Shown here piece after piece: positions 24,794-37,532 of a stretch of 64,000 nucleotides of DNA. Position numbers and translations under genes: made by a program. The stretch covers positions 62,001 to 126,000 of the forward strand of contig NZ_CP130613.1 in assembly GCF_030623445.1 (NCBI RefSeq). Direction: 5' to 3'. The notes under the pieces are model-generated. The model had not been told where the DNA came from. It saw only the letters and a list, made by a program, of their open reading frames with translations, and did not search any database. Each line of letters begins with the position of its first letter. Within the stretch, counting starts at the first letter, position 1. This stretch comes from Pseudogemmatithrix spongiicola (GTDB taxonomy: Bacteria > Gemmatimonadota > Gemmatimonadetes > Gemmatimonadales > Gemmatimonadaceae).

Positions 24794-26155
24794 ATGCCCA
24801 AGCCCTCGACCGTCCCCGCCGACCTCAGCGGCGCGACCGCCAAGGACATTCTCGCCCTCGCGGAGTCGCAGGGGGTGCGATTCCTGCGCCTGCAGTTCAC
24901 CGACATCCTCGGCATCAACAAGAACGTCGAGGTGCCGGCGTCGCAATTCCCGAAGGCGCTGGCGGGCGACATGCTCTTCGACGGCTCGTCGATCGAGGGA
25001 TTCGTGCGCGTCGAGGAGTCGGATATGCTGCTCAAGCCCGACTTCTCGACCTTCCGCGTGTTTCCCTGGGGCGATCCGCAGCAGCGCGTCGCGCGCGTGA
25101 TCTGCGACGTGACGATGTTCGACGGCTCGCCGTTCGCCGGCGATCCGCGGCAGGTGCTCAAGCGCCAGGTGGCGCGCGCCGCCGAGATGGGCTTCGTGAT
25201 GAACGCCGGCATGGAAGCCGAGTTCTTCCTGTTCCGGCCCGCGGTGGACGGCGGCGCGGGGACGCTCACGCACGACGTGGGCGGCTACTTCGACCTCGCG
25301 CCGATGGACCGCGGCGAGGATGCACGCCGCGCGATCGTCGCGACGCTGGAGCAGATGGGCTTCGAGGTGGAAGGTGCGCACCATGAGGTCGCGCACGGCC
25401 AGCACGAGATCGACTTCCGCTACGCCGACGCCCTGACCACGGCGGACAACATCGCGACGTTTCGCTTCGTCGTGAAGCACGTGGCGCAGCAGTTCGGCCT
25501 GGTCGCCTCGTTCATGCCGAAGCCGGTGTTCGGGCAGAACGGCAGCGGCATGCACACGCACCAGTCGCTGTTCGCCAAGGGCGAGAACGCGTTCTTCGAC
25601 GCGAAGGCCGAGTACCAGCTTTCGAAGGTCGCGCACCATTACATCGGCGGGCTGCTCAAGCATGCGCGCGGCATGAGTGCGATCACCAACCCGCTGGTGA
25701 ACTCGTACAAGCGGCTCGTGCCGGGCTACGAGGCGCCGGTGAACGTGGCGTGGTCGCTGCACAACCGCTCGCCGCTGATCCGCGTGCCCTCGCGCCGCGG
25801 GGCGGGGACGCGCGTGGAACTGCGCTCGCCGGACCCCTCGGCCAACCCCTACCTGGCGCTGGCCGTCATGCTCGCCGCGGGACTCGACGGCATCGCGACC
25901 GAGGCGACCTCGCGCGAGCCGGTGAACGAGAACATCTGGGAGATGAGCTTCCGCGAGCGCCGTCGCCTGCGCATCGACGACCTGCCGCACGACCTCAACG
26001 AGGCCTGCGACGAGCTCGAGAAGGATGCAGACATCTGCGAGGCGCTGGGGCCGCACGTGACCCAGCAGTTCCTCGCCGCGAAGCGCGAAGAGTGGCGCGA
26101 GTACATCTCGCAGGTCTCGGCCTGGGAGCTGGACCGCTACCTGGCGAAGTACTGA
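24794..26155 (+). CDS. glnA: Glutamine synthetase, type I (GSI-alpha-like)
   Basis: 453 residues; ATP-dependent glutamate plus ammonium to glutamine, a cytoplasmic dodecamer. Motifs: MLFDGSSIEGF, GMEAEFFLF, GQNGSGMHTHQSLF and NPLVNSYKRLVPGYEAPV, with NRSPLIRVP later. The adenylylation loop of the beta subtype (NLYDLP) is absent: the matching region reads RLRIDDLP, so control by adenylylation is unlikely and feedback control of the Bacillus type is more plausible. The ATG follows GGAGGA at a somewhat long spacing. It is coupled to the FKBP gene by an overlapping stop/start. A type III enzyme is also encoded at 35313. Confidence 0.95.
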   Translation: MPKPSTVPADLSGATAKDILALAESQGVRFLRLQFTDILGINKNVEVPASQFPKALAGDMLFDGSSIEGFVRVEESDMLLKPDFSTFRVFPWGDPQQRVARVICDVTMFDGSPFAGDPRQVLKRQVARAAEMGFVMNAGMEAEFFLFRPAVDGGAGTLTHDVGGYFDLAPMDRGEDARRAIVATLEQMGFEVEGAHHEVAHGQHEIDFRYADALTTADNIATFRFVVKHVAQQFGLVASFMPKPVFGQNGSGMHTHQSLFAKGENAFFDAKAEYQLSKVAHHYIGGLLKHARGMSAITNPLVNSYKRLVPGYEAPVNVAWSLHNRSPLIRVPSRRGAGTRVELRSPDPSANPYLALAVMLAAGLDGIATEATSREPVNENIWEMSFRERRRLRIDDLPHDLNEACDELEKDADICEALGPHVTQQFLAAKREEWREYISQVSAWELDRYLAKY

Positions 26156-26644: not shown

Positions 26645-28045
26645 GTGGCGGCCCCCGGCACGAAGCGCTTCGACCGCTCGATCGTCGAGGGCCCCATCAG
26701 CGGCGCCGTGTGGAAGCTCGCGTGGCCGACCGTGCTCCAGAACGTCATCGGGGGCCTGCAGGGCGTGGTGGACCATGCGATGGTCGGCCACTACGTGGGC
26801 TACGCCGGCAACGCCGCGGTCGGCGTGTCGCTGCAGATCTTCATCGTCGTCATCGTCTTCGTGATGTCGCTCTACACGGGCATGGGCGTGCTGGTCGCGC
26901 GGCATGCCGGCGCCGATGACCACGACGGCGTGAATCACGTGGTGTACCAGGCGTTCCTGGCGACGATGCTGCTGTCACTGCTCGTGCTGGCGCCCATCGG
27001 GTGGTTCGCGGCGCCCTGGCTGCTCGATCTCGTGCGGGCGGCGCCCGAGGTGAAGGCGCAGGCGCTGCAGTACCTGCGCATCTCGTTCCTGGGCTGTGCC
27101 GGCACGATGACGTTCTTCCTGCTCGGCGGTGCGCTGCGCGCGGCGGGCGACGCGAAGACGCCGCTCCGCCTCGGCCTGGCGATGACCGCGCTGAACGTGC
27201 TGCTCAACGTGCTGCTGATCCGCGGCGTGGGCCCGTTCCCCGCGCTCGGCGTGGCCGGTGCGGCGCTGGGCACCGTGATCGCCGGGCTCACGGTCTCGGG
27301 CGTCGGCCTCTGGCTGCTGCTCAGCGGTCGCCTCGTGGTGCACTGGCCGACGTCGCAGTCGCGACGCATCGACTGGGCGACGGTGCGGCAGCTCTTCCGT
27401 TTCGGGTTGCCCGCCGGGTTGCAGGGCATCGCCATGAACGTCGCGGGCGTGCTGCTGCTGCGGTACATCGGTTCGCTGGCCCAGAGCGCGGAGGCGCAGG
27501 CGGCGTACGCGATCGGCTACACCGAGCTGTTCTCGCTGGTGACGTGGACGTCGGTGGGCTTGATGGGCGCGGCGGCGGCCGTTGCGGGCCAGAACCTCGG
27601 GGCCGGCAAGCCCGAGCGTTCCGCCGCGGCGGTCCAGACGGCGGCAGGATACGGCATCGGCATCGCGCTGTTCGTCGGCGCGCTGTTCCTCACGGTGCCG
27701 CGGCTCCTGCTCGGCCTGTTCGGGATGCAGGACGAGACGGTGCTCGCACTCGGGACGCAGCTGCTGCGCTGGCTGGCGGTCTCTGGGATGTTCGTCTCCG
27801 TCGCACTGACGTTCACGGGCGGCTTGCAGGGCACCGGCGACACGAAGGGGCCGCTCTACATCTCCCTGGTCTCGCAGATCGGCATTCCGTTGGGACTGCT
27901 CGCGGTGCTGCAGGCGATGCGGCCGCTGCAGCCCAGCGATATCTGGCTGGCGATCCTGTGCGGCCACGTGACGCGCTGCACGCTGAGTGTATGGCGTTTC
28001 CGGCGCGGGGCATGGCGAAGCATCCAGGTCGCGCCGGCGCGCTGA
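26645..28045 (+). CDS. MATE family multidrug/metabolite exporter
   Basis: 466 residues from GTG. About twelve membrane helices in two pseudo-repeats; the first has VWKLAWPTVLQNVIGGLQGVVDHAMVG, typical of MATE TM1-2, and the second half has LFRFGLPAGLQGIAMNVAG. It probably exports cationic drugs or a natural product by Na+ or H+ antiport. It begins two bases after the FKBP stop, in the glnA operon. A weak hairpin follows it, then a pair of ATP-grasp genes; whether it exports their product is open. Confidence 0.92.
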   Translation: MAAPGTKRFDRSIVEGPISGAVWKLAWPTVLQNVIGGLQGVVDHAMVGHYVGYAGNAAVGVSLQIFIVVIVFVMSLYTGMGVLVARHAGADDHDGVNHVVYQAFLATMLLSLLVLAPIGWFAAPWLLDLVRAAPEVKAQALQYLRISFLGCAGTMTFFLLGGALRAAGDAKTPLRLGLAMTALNVLLNVLLIRGVGPFPALGVAGAALGTVIAGLTVSGVGLWLLLSGRLVVHWPTSQSRRIDWATVRQLFRFGLPAGLQGIAMNVAGVLLLRYIGSLAQSAEAQAAYAIGYTELFSLVTWTSVGLMGAAAAVAGQNLGAGKPERSAAAVQTAAGYGIGIALFVGALFLTVPRLLLGLFGMQDETVLALGTQLLRWLAVSGMFVSVALTFTGGLQGTGDTKGPLYISLVSQIGIPLGLLAVLQAMRPLQPSDIWLAILCGHVTRCTLSVWRFRRGAWRSIQVAPAR

Positions 28046-28130: not shown

Positions 28131-29282
28131 ATGAGTCTGGCCGCAGGCGTCCGGGCGCCGCGTCCCCAAGTCCCCCGCACGCGCGATCCGCTCGTGTGGG
28201 TGTTGGTGCCGCATCTCGAGACGGCGGACGAGAATCTCGCCTGGTACTGCGACTTCAAGCAGAGTCGCGCCGAGTTCCGCCGCGCCTTCGCGATCCTTGG
28301 CATCCCGTGGCGCTGGCAGCGGATCACGCTCACCGACCGCGACGCCGTCGTCGCGCGCATCGCCCGCAGCGCGGAGAAGCGCGACGTCACCGTGTTCAAC
28401 CTCTGCGACGGTGACGAGACGAACGGCGTACCCGGCCTGTCGGTGATCCACGCGTTGGAACGCCACGGCCTGCGCTACACCGGCGCCGACGGTGCCTTCT
28501 ATGAAGGCACGACGTCGAAGATCGACATGAAGCGCGCGTTCGACCGCGCCGGCGTGCCGACCTCGCCGTGGGAAGTGGTGCCGCGCGACGGCAAGGGTGC
28601 CGCACAGCTCCTCGCCCGCCTCGGCGGCGGGCCGGTCATCATCAAGCCGGCGATCTCCGCGGGCTCGATGGGCGTGACGACCAAGAGCGTGGTGCGCACG
28701 GCCGCCGAGCTGCGGGAGCAGATGCAGCGTCTCCGGATGGGCTATCACGGCTGGGACCTCACGGGCGGCGGCGTGATCGCCGAGCGCTTCGTGACCGGGC
28801 GCGAGTTCACGACGTTCATCGTCGGCAACCACGATGCCGCGTCGCGGCGCCTGGTCTACCCGCCGGTGGAGCGCAGCTTCAACCCGCGCCTGCCGATGGA
28901 GGAGCGCTTCCTCTCGTTCGATCGCCTGTGGGGGATGTACGAGACGGAGGATCCGGTGGGCGGCTTCGAGCGCGACGAGGACCTGTGGCGCTACGCGCCG
29001 GTCTCCCGGACCGAGGCGACGCGCATCCGCGAGGTGAGCTGGGCGGCGTACGCCGCGGTCGGCGGTCGCGGCTACGGCCGCGTGGACCTGCGGCAGGACG
29101 CCGAGACGGGCGAGCTGGCCGTACTCGAGGTCAATGCGCAGTGCGGGCTGTCGGAAGACGAGCTGTACACCAGCATCGGGGCCATCCTCAAGTTCGCGCG
29201 CCGGCCGTACGCGCACGCCGTCGCCGCGATCCTCGCCGCCGCGCGCCAACGGGTCCGCCAGGCCGCTCGCCGCGCCGCGTGA
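28131..29282 (+). CDS. ATP-grasp ligase (D-Ala-D-Ala-ligase-like), first of a tandem
   Basis: 383 residues. An ATP-grasp fold: an N-terminal substrate domain containing VFNLCDGDETNGVPG, then IIKPAISAGSMGV (ATP Lys), GREFTTFIVG, and the metal-binding end GRVDLRQD...LAVLEVNAQCGLSED. The order matches D-Ala-D-Ala ligase relatives, which join a carboxylate to an amine through an acyl-phosphate. It is not a standard Ddl: the overall length and the N-terminal extension differ, and no mur genes are near. The last four bases overlap the next gene, a related ATP-grasp fused to a SET domain. Its substrate is unknown. Confidence 0.85.
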   Translation: MSLAAGVRAPRPQVPRTRDPLVWVLVPHLETADENLAWYCDFKQSRAEFRRAFAILGIPWRWQRITLTDRDAVVARIARSAEKRDVTVFNLCDGDETNGVPGLSVIHALERHGLRYTGADGAFYEGTTSKIDMKRAFDRAGVPTSPWEVVPRDGKGAAQLLARLGGGPVIIKPAISAGSMGVTTKSVVRTAAELREQMQRLRMGYHGWDLTGGGVIAERFVTGREFTTFIVGNHDAASRRLVYPPVERSFNPRLPMEERFLSFDRLWGMYETEDPVGGFERDEDLWRYAPVSRTEATRIREVSWAAYAAVGGRGYGRVDLRQDAETGELAVLEVNAQCGLSEDELYTSIGAILKFARRPYAHAVAAILAAARQRVRQAARRAA

Positions 29283-30727
29283 AGATCTGCGTGTTGCAGC
29301 CGGACTACTCCACCTCCACGGTGGACTACCGGCACTACGATCCGCCGCGGGACCTCGCCGCGCTCGCGCCCGGCCACACGGTGCACCACGAGTTCCTGCA
29401 CAAGCTCACGACGTACAAGCAGCTGCAGGCGCTCAAGCCGCAGGGCTTCGACATCTACGTGAACCTCTGCGAGGGCTATCTCGAGTGGGATGTCCCCAGC
29501 GTGGACGTGATCCACGCGCTCGAGCAGCTCGGGTTGCCCTACACCGGGCCGACGCCGCAGCTCTACGACCCGTCGAAGCCGCTCATGAAGTACGTCGCGC
29601 ACTCGGCGGGCATCACCACGCCCCGTCATGTAGTGCTCGCGCCCGGCGACGATGCCGTCGCGGCAGTGGCGCGTGCCAGGCTCCGGTATCCGTTGTTCGT
29701 GAAGCCGGCGAAGGCGGGCGATTCGCTCGGCGTCGATGAGTCGGCGCGCATCGCGGACGCGGCGGCGCTTCAGGCGCAGGTGGCGCGTATCCAACCCGAG
29801 TACCCTGACCTGCTCGTCGAGGAGTTCATCGAGGGGCGGGAGTTCACGGTGCTCGTGATCGGCGATCCGGAGGGCCATGGGCGCAGCACGGCGCTCACGC
29901 CGGTGGAGTATCGCTTTCCCGAGGGGCGGAGCTACAAGAGCTACGCGCTCAAGACCAGCGAGTTGCACCCGGACGCGAACGTGCCGGTGCGCGACGAGCC
30001 ACTGGCGTCGCAGCTCAAGGACGCCGCGCGCACGGTGTTCCGCAGCTTCGACGCGACGGGCTATGCGCGCATGGACTTCCGCATGGATGCGGCGGGCCGG
30101 CTGTACTTCCTCGAGATCAACTTCACCTGCAGCGTGTTCTACCCCGAGGGATGGGAAGGCTCGGCGGACCACATCCTCAGGCTCGACGGATTGGGGCAGG
30201 CGGGATTCCTCGAGCGCATCATCGCCGAAGGCCGGGCGCGGCACGCGCGCCGGCGGAAGGCATACGCGATGCGCGGCGACGCCATCGCCGGCTACGGCAT
30301 CGTCGCGACGCGAGACCTCGCGGCCGGTGAGGTGATCTTCCGCGGGGAGGAGCGTCCGTTCCGGCTGGTGACGCGGCGCCACGTGGAGACGCGCTGGAGC
30401 GCCAGCGAGCAGGAGCTGTTCCGCCGCTACGCCTACCCGATGAGCGCCGAGGTGTACGCGATCTGGGACAGCGAACCGTCCGCATGGGCGCCGCAGAACC
30501 ACTCCTGCGAGCCGAACACGGTGTATCTCGGGTTGGACGTGGTCGCCGCGCGGGCAGTCAGCGCGGGCGAGGAGTTGACGCTCGACTACGCGCAGTTCCT
30601 CGACACCGCGGCGGAGCCGTTCGAGTGCGCCTGCGGCGCCGCGCGCTGCCGCGGCCTCGTGACGGGGACCGCCGGCAACTCGGTGACCGCACGCGAGGCC
30701 GCCGCGCGCTCACCACTCTCGGCCTAG
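29279..30727 (+). CDS. ATP-grasp ligase fused to a SET/post-SET lysine methyltransferase domain
   Basis: 482 residues from GTG. Residues ~1-310 form a second ATP-grasp related to its neighbour: VNLCEGYLEWDVPS, LFVKPAKAGDSLGV, GREFTVLVIGD, ARMDFRMDAAGRLYFLEINFTCS. Residues ~325-470 are a full SET domain: GYGIVATRDLAAGEVIF, NHSCEPNT, GEELTLDY, then a Cys-rich post-SET, CACGAARCRG, that would bind zinc. SET enzymes methylate lysine with S-adenosylmethionine. Joining a carboxylate-amine ligase to a protein-lysine methyltransferase in one chain is unusual; it may make and modify a lysine-containing peptide or protein tail. GTG overlaps the upstream stop by four bases. Confidence 0.85.
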   Translation: MKICVLQPDYSTSTVDYRHYDPPRDLAALAPGHTVHHEFLHKLTTYKQLQALKPQGFDIYVNLCEGYLEWDVPSVDVIHALEQLGLPYTGPTPQLYDPSKPLMKYVAHSAGITTPRHVVLAPGDDAVAAVARARLRYPLFVKPAKAGDSLGVDESARIADAAALQAQVARIQPEYPDLLVEEFIEGREFTVLVIGDPEGHGRSTALTPVEYRFPEGRSYKSYALKTSELHPDANVPVRDEPLASQLKDAARTVFRSFDATGYARMDFRMDAAGRLYFLEINFTCSVFYPEGWEGSADHILRLDGLGQAGFLERIIAEGRARHARRRKAYAMRGDAIAGYGIVATRDLAAGEVIFRGEERPFRLVTRRHVETRWSASEQELFRRYAYPMSAEVYAIWDSEPSAWAPQNHSCEPNTVYLGLDVVAARAVSAGEELTLDYAQFLDTAAEPFECACGAARCRGLVTGTAGNSVTAREAAARSPLSA

Positions 30728-30733
30728 CGTCCG

Positions 30734-31126
30734 ATGGCGGACGGCGCGCTGGCGAAGTTGCGCGAGATCTGCCTCGCGCTGCCCGGCGCGACGGAAGTGC
30801 CCGCGTGGGAGACCTCCACGTTCCGCGTCGGCAAGATCTTCGCGATGTATGCGCAGCCGAGCGACAGCAAGCACAGCGGCGGGCGACCCGGCGTGTGGCT
30901 CAAGGTCGCGCCGGGGGTGCAATCGCTGATGCTCGCCGACCGACCGGATCGCTTCTACTTCCCGCCGTATGTGGGCAAGAGTGGGTGGATCGGCGTGTGG
31001 CTCGACAAGCGCGTGAGTTGGAAGGAGGTGGCGCTGCTCGTCGAGGAGAGCTGGCGGCTCATGGCACCGGCGAAGCTCCGCAAGGCGTACGACGATCCCA
31101 CACGCACGAAGGGCCGCGCGAGGTAG
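30734..31126 (+). CDS. MmcQ/YjbR family protein
   Basis: 130 residues. The family is recognised by CLALPGATEVPAWETSTFRVGKIFAMY, VWLKVAPG and the C-terminal VALLVEESWRLMAPAKLRKAY, the YjbR helix. These small cytoplasmic proteins have a CyaY-like fold and are called DNA-binding, but their role is unclear. It starts six bases after the SET fusion gene and probably shares its transcript. It is followed at once by a strong hairpin that uses its own last codons. Confidence 0.9.
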   Translation: MADGALAKLREICLALPGATEVPAWETSTFRVGKIFAMYAQPSDSKHSGGRPGVWLKVAPGVQSLMLADRPDRFYFPPYVGKSGWIGVWLDKRVSWKEVALLVEESWRLMAPAKLRKAYDDPTRTKGRAR

Positions 31127-31158: not shown

Positions 31159-34140
31159 TCAGCGTCCGGCGTCGAGGTCGTTCCAGTGCAGGATGGCGTT
31201 GAAGCCGAGGAAGAACGTGCCGTGCGTCTGCCAGCGCCAGAAGGGGCGGATGCCGAACATGACGACGTGGCCGTCGCCGATCGGCGCGTCGACGACCTGC
31301 GCGCGATTGGCGAGCGCCTGTCCGCCGGCGAGCGTGCCGGAGAGCAGCATCTCGGCGGGGTTCGCGGGGAAGCTCAGCACGGCGCGCGGCCGCGTGTCGC
31401 GCATGGCGGGACGCGGAGCCGCCGCCGTCGCGGCGTTGGCGCCGGCCGCAGCGCCGCCGGCCGCAGCGCCGCTCGCGGCACCACCACGTGCACCGCCCGC
31501 GGCCGCGCCTCCACGTCCAGCGGCGGCGGGAGCCGCTGCCGCGTCGGCCGGCGCGATGCCTTCGATGGCGTTCCAGTCCCACGAGGAGACCGTCACGCGC
31601 GTAGCCATCGGCGTGGTGTTCTGCTGCTGGCTGTTGCCGGCCGCTCCGCCGAAGCCGCCGCCGCCGCCCGGCGTGGCGCCCTGCACGGCGAGTACCGGCG
31701 CTTGGCTGAAGTACACCGGTACCTTCGCGTTGAAGCCGTAGGCGATGGGGCTGCGGCGATCGGTGACGATGCCGCGGTACACCGAGCCACGCGCGAAGAG
31801 CGAGTCCGGCTCCTCGACCGTGATGCCCGTGGTGAGGTTGTACTCGGGGAAGATGGTGCTCGTCGCGCCTTCGACGATCAGCGTGCCGCCGGCCTTCACG
31901 AACTCATACAGCGCCATGAGCCCTTCGATGCCCATGCCGCCACGGATGTCGTCCGAGGAATCGTTGGCGCCGAGGTTGGGCGTCTGCTCGGTCTTCTTGT
32001 AGGGCAGCGGCAAGGTGCCGGTCATCGCGAGGCCATTGACCTGTGCCTGCGCGGTGCCGCCGACGTGCGGGAAGACGATCACGTCGTACTTGCTGCGCAG
32101 GTTGCCTTCGCGCAGGCGCTGGTCGGCGAAGTACTCGTACGGCACGCCGTAGGTATCGAAGGCGGCGCGCACCCAGCCTTCATCCTGCGTGCGCTGCCAG
32201 GAGTGGACGTAGCCGATACGCGGGACGTCGAGGTCATGCGTCGCGACGCTCGGCGCCGCGGCCACGGCGTAACCCTGGAGCCCGAGTTCGGTGAGCGTCG
32301 CGCCGACGCGCGCGAGGTCCGCGTCGGGGATGATGAACGCCCCGGCGCGATAGCGGCGGCCACCGGCCTCGAAGTCCGCCTGCGCGGCGCGCATCGGCAC
32401 GTCCCTGAGGCGGAAGCGCATGCTGACGAGCGCGTTGTCGGTGGTGTGGTCGACGATGACCACGCGGCCGCTGCCGCTGATGCCGCCCGTGGCGCGGGCC
32501 GGCGCCGTGAGCGGTGTCATGCGGCGCGTGAGCACGCTCGAATCCGTGACCGGGGTGACGACGACGTTGCGCATCAGCTGGAAGGTCCAGCCGGTGTCGT
32601 CGTATGGGCGCGGGTTGGCCGGCGAGAAGTTCTGCACGCTGAAGTACATGTCGGCCAGCGTGCGGTAGGGCTGGTCGGCGCGGACGATCCAGTCGCCGCG
32701 CTGCACGCGGGTGCCGTTCAGTGTGTAGTCGGCGTCGGCGACGTGGATCTCAAGGCCCTGGCGCTGCAGTTCGTTGATGGCGTCGACGGCGTCGACGCGC
32801 CGGCGCTGGTTGGCGGGCACGTGCCACGCGTAGGTCGGGCCGGCGCGGCCCTTCTCGACCGAGCGCTTGTTCTTGAGCCAGTAGTTCTCGAGGTAGAGCC
32901 GGCGGTTGCTGGCGAAGTGGTCGAGCGAGAACAGCAGGCCCGACTGGCCGATGTTCACCGAGTTGCGCGGGCCCCACTTGATCTCGGGCAGCGGCGGATT
33001 CGGACGGAACCACTCGCGCGAGGTCGTCTGCGGCCCGACGCGCAGCGAGGGATTGTTGTCGGGCCCGTAGCTCTGCACCTCGTAGAAGCGCCCGATGGCG
33101 TTGTGCGCGTGCGCGGCGAAGAACAGGTAGTTGGGTGTCCAGCCGTCGTAGAAGCCGTAGGTCCACACGCCCGGCACGCCGCGCTTGGTCATCTCCATCA
33201 CGTCCACCTGCGCCATCGTCCACCACTCGGTGACGGTGATGGGGTCGAGCCACTCGTTGTACGGGCCCGTGCCGGTGGAGGTGTAGAGGTAGGACACGGA
33301 CTCATGCAGGTCGTGCATCACCTGCGGCGTCCACTCGAGGAAGAACCTGTTGGTGTGGCGCGTGAGCGCGAGGAACTGGCCCATGCCGTCGCGGTTGTTG
33401 TCGTGCGCGACATACTTGCCCCAGTACATCAGGGGCAGGCGGGACTCGCCGGTGGGACGCGTCTTGTTGAAGTAGTAGGTGTCGACCTGCCGTTCGCGGC
33501 CGTCCACCTCGAGCACCGGCGTGATGAACGTGATGGCGTTCTCGCGGATGTTCTTGATCAGCGCCTGGTCGCTCACCGCGAGGCGGTAGGCGAGTTCCAT
33601 GACCATCTCGGGTCCGCCCGTCTCGCCGGAATGCAGGCCGGTCGTGACCCAATAGATGGGCTTGGCGGTCTGGATCAGTTCGCGCGCGCGCGCTTCGCTG
33701 GTGCGCCGCGGATCGGTGAGTTCCTTGAGGTAGCCGCGGTAGCGATCGAGGTCGCGGATGGTGGCTTCGTCGGCGACGGCAAGCACGTACATGTCGCGGC
33801 CTTCCTCCGACGTACCGATCTTCCAGACCTTCACGCGGTCGGACGCTGCGTCGAGGGCCTGGTAGTATCGATGGATGTCGGCGGCGTAGGTGAGCTCGCC
33901 CGGCGTGCCGACGATGCGCCCGAAGAACTTGAGCGGCGTGGGAATCGTCGGATGCGCCGGCAGGTGGTCGACGAGCTCCGTCGAGATGCGCGGATCCTGG
34001 AGGTATTCGCGGATCTTCGCGGTGTACTCCTGGTCGATCGGCTGTTGCTGCTGCGCGGCCAGCGGGGCCGCGATGAGCAGCAGGGCGAGGGTGTGCGCGG
34101 CGATGTGCGGCATGCGGCGCGGGCGGACGATGGGGGCCAT
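31159..34140 (-). CDS. Secreted M14-family zinc carboxypeptidase, large
   Basis: 993 residues with a signal peptide ending AAPLAAQ. The catalytic M14 domain is near residues 50-400: HSGETGGPEM supplies two zinc ligands, VMHDLHES the third, and downstream FYDGWTPNYLF and related blocks follow the M14 family. The C-terminal two-thirds includes a class I amidotransferase-like or lyase-like stretch (SKYDVIVFPHVGGT, GTLIVEGATSTIFP) and an Ala/Gly-rich region (near residues 820-920). The ATG at 34140 has GGAGA upstream; longer extensions run into an upstream region with no signal peptide. It degrades exported peptides or proteins, as in other soil bacteria. Confidence 0.88.
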   Translation of the reverse strand: MAPIVRPRRMPHIAAHTLALLLIAAPLAAQQQQPIDQEYTAKIREYLQDPRISTELVDHLPAHPTIPTPLKFFGRIVGTPGELTYAADIHRYYQALDAASDRVKVWKIGTSEEGRDMYVLAVADEATIRDLDRYRGYLKELTDPRRTSEARARELIQTAKPIYWVTTGLHSGETGGPEMVMELAYRLAVSDQALIKNIRENAITFITPVLEVDGRERQVDTYYFNKTRPTGESRLPLMYWGKYVAHDNNRDGMGQFLALTRHTNRFFLEWTPQVMHDLHESVSYLYTSTGTGPYNEWLDPITVTEWWTMAQVDVMEMTKRGVPGVWTYGFYDGWTPNYLFFAAHAHNAIGRFYEVQSYGPDNNPSLRVGPQTTSREWFRPNPPLPEIKWGPRNSVNIGQSGLLFSLDHFASNRRLYLENYWLKNKRSVEKGRAGPTYAWHVPANQRRRVDAVDAINELQRQGLEIHVADADYTLNGTRVQRGDWIVRADQPYRTLADMYFSVQNFSPANPRPYDDTGWTFQLMRNVVVTPVTDSSVLTRRMTPLTAPARATGGISGSGRVVIVDHTTDNALVSMRFRLRDVPMRAAQADFEAGGRRYRAGAFIIPDADLARVGATLTELGLQGYAVAAAPSVATHDLDVPRIGYVHSWQRTQDEGWVRAAFDTYGVPYEYFADQRLREGNLRSKYDVIVFPHVGGTAQAQVNGLAMTGTLPLPYKKTEQTPNLGANDSSDDIRGGMGIEGLMALYEFVKAGGTLIVEGATSTIFPEYNLTTGITVEEPDSLFARGSVYRGIVTDRRSPIAYGFNAKVPVYFSQAPVLAVQGATPGGGGGFGGAAGNSQQQNTTPMATRVTVSSWDWNAIEGIAPADAAAAPAAAGRGGAAAGGARGGAASGAAAGGAAAGANAATAAAPRPAMRDTRPRAVLSFPANPAEMLLSGTLAGGQALANRAQVVDAPIGDGHVVMFGIRPFWRWQTHGTFFLGFNAILHWNDLDAGR

Positions 34141-35312: not shown

Positions 35313-37532
35313 TCAGACCGGGAACAGCATCTCGCGGTAGCGCGGCAGCGGCCAGTGCGCGTCGCCGACGCTGACCTCGAGCTTGTCCGAGATCTCGCGG
35401 CAGGCGAGCATGGTGCTGGCCCCAGTGCCGGTGAGGAACGCCGCGCACTTGCTGATGTCGCCATGCAGCGTGTGCGCCTTGTGGATCGCCGTATGCAGCG
35501 CGGCGGTCTTGCCCTGCAGCGCGGTGACGAGCTTGCCCACCGAGGCCAGCGCGGCCTTCTGCGGAATACTCTTGATGCCCACGGCCTTCGCCTTGGCGGC
35601 GCCCTCGGCCAGGTCGCCGAGGTAGCTGTACGCCGCCGGCAGGATCATCGTGTCGAGCATCTCGGCCAGCGTCTCCATCTCGATGAGCAGGTCCTTCACG
35701 TAGCGTTCGACGCGGACGTGGTAGCGGCTCTCGAGCTCGGCTTCGGTGAGGATGCCCGTGCCCTTGAAGAGCGCCTTGGCCTCCTTGGTGGTGAGCTGCG
35801 CGAGCGCCTCGGGCGCGCGGCGCAGGTTGAGCAGGCCGCGCTTCTTGGCCTCCTTCACCCACTCCTCGCTGTAGCCGTTGCCCTCGAAGCGGATCGGGCT
35901 GGTCTCCTTGAAGATCCTGCGCACCACCTTGAGCGCGGCATCGTCCACGGGCGTGCCGTTGGCGAGTTCCTTCTTGAGCGCCGCCACGATCTCGGTGAGC
36001 GCCTCGGCGACCACGGCATTCACGATCATCACCGGGAAGGCGATCGACTGCGACGAGCCCACGGCGCGGAACTCGAACTTCGCGCCGGTGAAGGCGAAGG
36101 GCGAGGTGCGGTTGCGGTCCGTGTTGTCCTGCTCGATCTCCGGCAGCTTGGCGACGCCGAGCTGCAGCATCGCCTGCTCGGCCTTGGTGCCCGCGCGGCC
36201 GGCGATGATGTCCTCGATCATCTTCGTGAGCGCATTGCCCATGAAGACGGAGATGATGGCCGGCGGCGCCTCGTTGGCGCCGAGGCGATGCTCATTGCCG
36301 CTGGTACCGATGCCGGCGCGCAGCAGGCCCTGGTGGCGGTGCACGCCACGCAGCACCGCGGCCAGGAACATCAGGAAGCGGATGTTCTGGTGCGGCGTCT
36401 TGCCCGGCTTGAGCAGGTTGATGCCGTTGAGCTCGTTATCCGAGGCGATCGACAGCGACCAGTTGCAGTGCTTGCCCGAGCCGTTGATGCCGGCGAAGGG
36501 CTTCTCGTTGAGCAGCACCTGCAGGCCATGGCGCAGCGCCACGTCCTTGAGGACGGACATCACGAGCTGGTTGTGGTCGGTGGCGATGTCGGTTTCCTCG
36601 AACATCGGCGCCATCTCGAACTGGCAGGGCGCGACCTCGTTGTGGCGCGTGACGATCGGCACGCCGAGCTTGTAGAGCTCGAACTCCACCTCGGCGAGGA
36701 AGGCCTGGACGCGCTCGGGGATGCCCCCGAAGTAGTGGTCCTCGAGCTGCTGGCCGCGCGGCGGGGCCGCGCCGACGAGCGTGCGGCCGCCCATCACGAG
36801 GTCGGGGCGCATCGCGAAGTGCGTGCGGTCGATGACGAAGAACTCCTGCTCCGTGCCCATCGTGGTGTAGACGCGCAGCGCGCCCTTGTCGCCGATCAGG
36901 TCGAGCAGCTCACGCGCGGCGTTGGAGAGGATCTCGCTCGAACGGAACAGCGGGGCGACCTCGTCGAGGGCCTCGCCGTTGTAGCCGATGAACACCGACG
37001 GGATGCAGAGCGTCTTGGTGCCGGCCGCTTCCATGATGAAGAGCGGCGAGGCCGGGTTCCACGCCGTGTAGCCGCGGGCTTCCCAGGTCGCGCGGAGGCC
37101 GCCCGACGGGAACGACGACGCGTCCGGCTCAGACTGGATCAGCTGCTCGGCCGTGAACTTCTCGATCGCGTTGCCATTGGCGTCGAGCGTGAGGAAGGCG
37201 TCGTGCTTCTCGGCGGTGAGGCCGGTCTGCGGCTGGAACCAGTGGCAGAAGTGCGTCACGCCCTGCGTGATCGCCCACTCCTTCACCGCGCTGGCGACGG
37301 CCGGCGCGATCGACGGATCGAGCTTCCTCCCAAGACGGATGGCCTCGACGAGCCTTGCGTGCACGTCCTTCGGCAGCTTGTCCTTCATCTGCTTGGCGCC
37401 GAAGGTGTGGCTGCCGAAGTACGCGGAGGTCGGCTTGGGGTTCGGCAGCATCGACGGCACGTTCGGCACGATCGGCGTGCGCGTGGCGATGGCGCGGATG
37501 GCCGAGAGGCGGGGCGTATCTGAGGCGGACAT
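35313..37532 (-). CDS. glnN: Glutamine synthetase, type III (GlnN)
   Basis: 739 residues, the length of type III enzymes. Motifs of the family: FGSHTFGAKQMKDKLPK near the N-terminus, THFCHWFQPQTGLTAEKHD, TMGTEQEFFVID, the long ATP-binding segment LNEKPFAGINGSGKHCNWSLS and, near the end, helical repeats. It makes glutamine from glutamate and ammonium as a dodecamer and is regulated by nitrogen in cyanobacteria and Bacteroidetes; it complements the type I enzyme at 24794. The ATG at 37532 is preferred over 37574 because it lies next to the conserved start and leaves room for an upstream operator. Confidence 0.95.
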   Translation of the reverse strand: MSASDTPRLSAIRAIATRTPIVPNVPSMLPNPKPTSAYFGSHTFGAKQMKDKLPKDVHARLVEAIRLGRKLDPSIAPAVASAVKEWAITQGVTHFCHWFQPQTGLTAEKHDAFLTLDANGNAIEKFTAEQLIQSEPDASSFPSGGLRATWEARGYTAWNPASPLFIMEAAGTKTLCIPSVFIGYNGEALDEVAPLFRSSEILSNAARELLDLIGDKGALRVYTTMGTEQEFFVIDRTHFAMRPDLVMGGRTLVGAAPPRGQQLEDHYFGGIPERVQAFLAEVEFELYKLGVPIVTRHNEVAPCQFEMAPMFEETDIATDHNQLVMSVLKDVALRHGLQVLLNEKPFAGINGSGKHCNWSLSIASDNELNGINLLKPGKTPHQNIRFLMFLAAVLRGVHRHQGLLRAGIGTSGNEHRLGANEAPPAIISVFMGNALTKMIEDIIAGRAGTKAEQAMLQLGVAKLPEIEQDNTDRNRTSPFAFTGAKFEFRAVGSSQSIAFPVMIVNAVVAEALTEIVAALKKELANGTPVDDAALKVVRRIFKETSPIRFEGNGYSEEWVKEAKKRGLLNLRRAPEALAQLTTKEAKALFKGTGILTEAELESRYHVRVERYVKDLLIEMETLAEMLDTMILPAAYSYLGDLAEGAAKAKAVGIKSIPQKAALASVGKLVTALQGKTAALHTAIHKAHTLHGDISKCAAFLTGTGASTMLACREISDKLEVSVGDAHWPLPRYREMLFPV

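Follow-up and report, generated by a model that had tools for sequence, protein, structure and literature searches.

Why should an enzyme that makes amide bonds carry a SET methyltransferase domain on the same polypeptide? The question arises from two co-directional ATP-grasp genes in the window, the whole stretch of 64,000 nucleotides that was analysed. As the earlier note on this DNA had described, the genes overlap by four bases, and the second continues beyond its ligase part into SET and post-SET regions (Table 1). The first is referred to here as AG1 and the second as the fusion.

Table 1 Features of the ligase–SET locus and its immediate neighbours, in window positions
Feature	Position	Strand	Remarks
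MATE-family exporter	26645..28045	+	matE 203 bits, above its cut-off; 5' of the ligase pair
ATP-grasp ligase 1 (AG1)	28131..29282	+	383 aa; Ddl-like; immediately 5' of the fusion in 77/80 loci
ATP-grasp-SET fusion	29279..30727	+	482 aa; GTG start within the 4-bp GTGA overlap with AG1
Ddl-like ATP-grasp part of fusion	29279..30208	+	about residues 1-310
SET domain of fusion	30290..30589	+	residues 338-437; W403, NHSC 407-410, aliphatic L435, catalytic-type Y437
Post-SET CxC-x4-C zinc motif of fusion	30626..30649	+	residues 450-457; cysteines 450/452/457 invariant
YjbR/MmcQ-fold protein	30734..31126	+	neighbour downstream of the fusion

The fusion is a real gene. A frameshift, which the earlier note had kept in view, or an assembly artefact is ruled out by the recurrence of full-length fusions in more than 80 independent contigs and by a low dN/dS. 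Measured against the two nearest relatives, dN/dS is 0.07 and 0.09, and it is similarly low in the ligase and SET parts (range 0.06-0.11), indicating purifying selection on both. The cross-genome search for the fusion and its neighbours that had been proposed was run, and it recovered full-length fusions, 53-93% identical overall, from Gemmatimonadota and Bacteroidota. Scanning species genomes yielded 565 confirmed relatives, of which the best 80, covering essentially the full fusion at 53-70% identity, were taken for locus analysis; within the window genus, identity is 64-93%. Among sampled genomes, the fusion is present in 47 of 150 Chitinophagaceae (the family of Lacibacter), in 22 of 200 across the phylum Gemmatimonadota and in 2 of 198 across the class Bacteroidia. 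It is absent from the plasmid records searched, and the window genome itself is a single contig of 3.26 Mb.

Six of the 22 fusions from the Gemmatimonadota sample form a divergent branch in two other families of the same class. They are 36-39% identical to the window protein and 49-76% identical to one member of the branch. None of the six has an adjacent AG1 gene, and genome-wide their hosts give only weak generic ATP-grasp matches besides the fusion itself; a scheme with two ligases is therefore not universal. At these solo loci (L163-L168), the fusion shares a 4-base overlap with a radical SAM gene in L164, whereas in L166 there are overlaps with two genes, one of cytochrome c type and one for an S9 peptidase.

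Both active sites of the fusion look intact as judged from their residues. The protein matches the Pfam families Dala_Dala_lig_C (1e-20) and SET (2.2e-10 at residues 338-437). Every motif that had been quoted for the SET and post-SET regions is present, namely NHSCEPNT (407-414), ELTLDY (432-437) and CxC-x4-C, and an alignment of 46 orthologues, with a mean column identity of 65%, shows little or no variation at the key residues. In the ligase part, K142, E188, K225, R264, D266, E279 and N281 are invariant, and E181 is nearly so. In the SET part, W403, N407, H408, C410 and the three post-SET cysteines are kept, and Y437 occurs in 45 of the 46 orthologues. An AlphaFold model of the whole chain, computed with 46 sequences, has a mean pLDDT of 90.8 and a pTM of 0.87; in it the domains are predicted to pack together in a defined way, as a single well-packed protein.

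The ligase parts are of Ddl type. Foldseek returned only Ddl structures as best matches for both, and AG1 matches Dala_Dala_lig_C at 1.3e-13; its annotated start is perhaps too early, with a GTG at 28194 as the alternative. AG1 and the ligase part of the fusion fall into two separate, well supported clades. With E. coli DdlB (1iow) the window ligases have in common the fold and the ATP- and Mg-binding residues (equivalents of Lys144, Glu270, Asn272 and Arg255/Asp257), which AG1 retains, and acyl-phosphate chemistry would be expected of them too. The difference lies where Ser281 of DdlB holds the second D-Ala. AG1 has Glu344 at this position, invariant in 23 sequences, whereas the second ligase has a different, longer loop (GSAD) in this region and carries the SET fusion. 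The glutamate makes D-alanine an unlikely acceptor for AG1, and a basic group may lie close to the Glu344 site.

A known Ddl or cyanophycin function, which the earlier note had named as a refutation, is not borne out, as both ligases miss the curated cut-offs. On TIGR01205, the fusion scores 87.4 and AG1 55.9 bits against a cut-off of 245.65, and the genome encodes a genuine Ddl elsewhere (C1:3237115-3238017, 299.2 bits). Matches to cyanophycin synthetase reach 19-29 bits against cut-offs of 850-877, and the Mur ligase domain is absent. Two adjacent Ddl-like ATP-grasp genes are also found in other Gemmatimonadota loci (L110:4927-8994, L111, L112 and L113), together with a GNAT gene and a KamA-family gene whose best match is the lysine 2,3-aminomutase AblA (438 bits, below the cut-off of 525). 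Like the fusion loci, these operons place two Ddl-like ligases beside amino-acid tailoring enzymes; they differ in that their ligases form separate clades and in having GNAT and KamA-family enzymes in place of SET. Such SET-less relatives indicate that ligase pairs of this kind do accompany amino-acid tailoring enzymes.

What, then, might the SET domain methylate? Profile comparison ranks BurB first among SET structures for the fusion (1.1e-11), in a near tie with the histone methyltransferase KMT2A (2.7e-11, over 128 residues). The fusion shares with KMT2A/MLL1 and its kin the core of protein-lysine SET enzymes, comprising NHSCxPN, the catalytic Tyr and the post-SET zinc cysteines (CxC-x4-C), and differs from them in its aliphatic switch residue, its attached ligase and the lack of a histone context. 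Most protein-lysine SET enzymes have Phe or Tyr at the switch position before the catalytic Tyr, a feature that is common but not universal. The fusions lack this hallmark: position 435 is Leu in 44 of the 46 orthologues and Met and Ile in one each, and a broader search for the motif, with the solo branch included, found Leu, Val, Met and Ala. Elsewhere, the two generic SET proteins of the window genome have Tyr and three small Bacteroidota SET proteins have Cys, while BurB aligns with Met at this position.

BurB, the sole characterised small-molecule SET enzyme that we found in the literature searched, shares its post-SET part with the fusion SET. It catalyses the SAM-dependent methylation of free methionine to S-methylmethionine (PMC12542666) and belongs to the DMSP/malleicyprol pathway, without an ATP-grasp fusion. 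BurB binds Met mainly via main chains, so that side chains are not diagnostic for a methionine substrate, and in the crystal its Ser88 sits between substrate and SAM (PMC12542666). Judged by its spacing to the HSC motif, the invariant W403 of the fusion appears to align with Ser88. Together, the aliphatic switch residue and W403 favour a small or unusual substrate.

The genes that accompany the ligase pair bear on the same question. Gaps between AG1 and the fusion are mostly of -30 to +150 bases in the loci analysed (neighbour genes in high-GC genomes were called by codon usage). In Bacteroidota, the co-directional order is standalone SET, ATP-grasp, ATP-grasp-SET and a membrane-only ABC protein. 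The standalone SET protein (~165 aa) is encoded upstream in 50 of the 80 loci and the ABC membrane protein (~300 aa) downstream in 43. The latter belongs to ABC_membrane_3 (PF13748; 2e-42 to 2e-37), a transmembrane unit without an ATPase domain of its own (at Bacteroidota loci, e.g. L046:7566-8456). In Gemmatimonadota, locus L170 has the order AG1, fusion, ABC, SET, with the genes overlapping by 4 bp, and in L032, L088 and L171 the ABC gene follows the fusion. That these four genes keep together in both phyla, though arranged in two ways, argues for one pathway.

The standalone SET protein resembles BurB more clearly than does the fusion. Its best structural match is BurB (9l4t, E 6.8e-13), with histone methyltransferases next at 2e-5, and the two have in common Y-x-S-T-E after the catalytic Tyr, FxCxCG, an IxGAKEL tail and similar length. 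In the window genome, the homologue (E 6.5e-51) lies away from the operon, at C1:1434858-1435361 (L116:6353-6943); sensor kinase-like and asparaginyl-tRNA synthetase-like genes, read from sequence, are found nearby. Among 99 relatives, nine have both the standalone SET and the fusion, two the SET only and nine the fusion only, a distribution confounded by one genus. The window genome encodes no PF13748 protein.

Two other neighbours had been singled out in the earlier note, a MATE exporter upstream and a MmcQ/YjbR protein downstream. Both are present (Table 1), but neither is generally conserved. Besides the window species, just three close relatives (G002, G005 and G015) have the MATE gene adjacent, which argues against a general role, although the exporter is a possible functional partner of the ligase pair in the window's relatives. 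The YjbR adjacency is not conserved, and this protein is probably an incidental neighbour outside the system. The conserved partners are the standalone SET protein and the ABC membrane domain without ATPase, neither of which is encoded in the window. Further out, two different glutamine synthetase-like genes flank the ligase pair within 10 kb (24794-26155 and 35313-37532, by sequence reading), and a large gene on the minus strand (31159-34140) resembles a secreted M14-type zinc carboxypeptidase.

Our preferred reading, to which we assign a probability of roughly 0.55, is that of a compact operon for the biosynthesis of a small methylated metabolite with amide linkages, akin to a di- or tripeptide. 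Each ATP-grasp enzyme would use ATP to activate a carboxylate as an acyl-phosphate and then couple it to an amine, joining units of amino-acid type. Beside the ligation site, the SET domain of the fusion would methylate one of these units or the product as it forms, in a SAM-dependent reaction. In Bacteroidota and some Gemmatimonadota, the BurB-like standalone SET may carry out a second methylation, for which methionine or another free amino acid is a possible acceptor. The product would probably be exported, by the orphan ABC membrane domain or, in the window's relatives, by the MATE protein; because the ABC protein has no ATPase, export is a guess. We infer the small-molecule rather than protein nature of the substrate, the order of the steps and the export alike. 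Transport genes of two unrelated types adjoining the ligase pair speak for such a pathway; against it are the 37 of 80 loci without the ABC protein, the many Gemmatimonadota without an adjacent exporter, and a fusion SET nearly as close to KMT2A as to BurB. More specifically, the fusions may constitute a bifunctional family in which the polypeptide that forms the amide bond also carries a SET domain acting on amino acids or short peptides rather than proteins, so that SET serves as a tailoring domain of non-ribosomal, peptide-like synthesis; this we regard as plausible at somewhat less than even odds. Of the earlier proposal that amide ligation and SET methylation form a pathway acting on a lysine-containing chain or protein tail, the dedicated pathway, distinct from Ddl and cyanophycin synthesis, thus finds support. 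The lysine chain or protein tail does not, given the near tie between BurB and KMT2A, the aliphatic switch residue and the BurB-like standalone SET.

In a system that modifies protein tails, the ligases would extend a side chain or C-terminus by amino acids, in the manner of tubulin tyrosine ligase-like enzymes, and the SET domain would methylate a lysine there. The classical SET and post-SET motifs and the profile similarity to KMT2A are consistent with this, and one eukaryotic protein, TTLL12 (present in humans), likewise joins SET-like and ligase-like domains in a single polypeptide (PMC3520985). Its domains are in the opposite order to those of the window fusion, with an N-terminal SETD3/4/6-like SET and a C-terminal TTL-like ligase. 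Both lack critical residues and were inactive in vitro (PMC3520985); TTLL12 is a degenerate analogue, with the domains of the fusion intact by their residues. The nearest ligase folds here are Ddl enzymes, which act on free amino acids; no conserved gene for a target protein lies beside the operon, aliphatic residues occupy the aromatic switch position, and a transporter-like partner is present in about half of the loci. We therefore consider protein-tail modification unlikely. An intracellular compatible solute, a methylated, betaine-like dipeptide that is not exported, would apparently need only primary metabolites, and the loci where related ligase pairs are accompanied by acetyltransferase and lysine 2,3-aminomutase-like genes bring N-acetyl-beta-lysine solutes to mind. 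Yet transport genes adjoin in many loci, and the apparent sources of the relatives (such as lakes and groundwater) are for the most part not saline, which leaves this solute a rather unlikely product.

Some ATP-grasp enzymes elsewhere attach the amino acids of peptidoglycan side chains. With this precedent and the Ddl-like fold, the window enzymes could be imagined to extend peptidoglycan or lipid precursors by an unusual amino acid, with the SET domains methylating it. This is improbable, as no mur, fts or ddl genes were seen beside the operon, the true Ddl is encoded elsewhere, and the patchy spread (exemplified by the Bacteroidia sample, 2/198) is unlike that of wall synthesis. With its ATP-grasp genes in tandem and a membrane protein of ABC type, the operon also resembles those of microviridins, which raises the prospect of a graspetide-like pathway in which the ligases cyclise or extend a ribosomal precursor. 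Graspetide pathways combine RimK-type ligases with a precursor gene, whereas the ligases here are of Ddl type. A search of 77 loci up to 1 kb from the operon found no conserved ORF of 20-90 aa, the conserved-looking small downstream ORFs being antisense shadows of the ABC gene and rejected as RiPP precursors. A graspetide is accordingly a highly improbable product.

The proposed biosynthetic operon would resemble, in its mode of action, a short-peptide ATP-grasp pathway that includes a methyltransferase. The earlier note knew of no characterised system with this layout, and the open-licence literature searched describes none; apart from TTLL12 and an unrelated paper on drug side effects, nothing in it joins ATP-grasp and SET, a bacterial ATP-grasp-SET fusion is nowhere described there, and a bacterial SET review mentions neither a ligase nor a fusion. 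A mention in a subscription genome survey is possible. In the cystargolide/belactosin pathway (PMC11427300), a SAM methyltransferase helps to build a short peptide with amide linkages, as proposed here, but that enzyme is not of the SET type and the carboxyl methyl ester it forms is transient.

The probable product of the operon is a small, peptide-like methylated compound, apparently an undescribed one. SET domains are usually regarded as methyltransferases for protein lysines, and those of bacteria often as effectors that target host chromatin. There is a real chance that the fusion opens SET chemistry to peptide-like small molecules. If our reading is true, the combination of a Ddl-like ligase–SET fusion with a BurB-like SET would extend SET chemistry to peptide-like metabolites, and a new pathway of only three to four genes would be at work in little-studied bacteria of soil and fresh water from two phyla.
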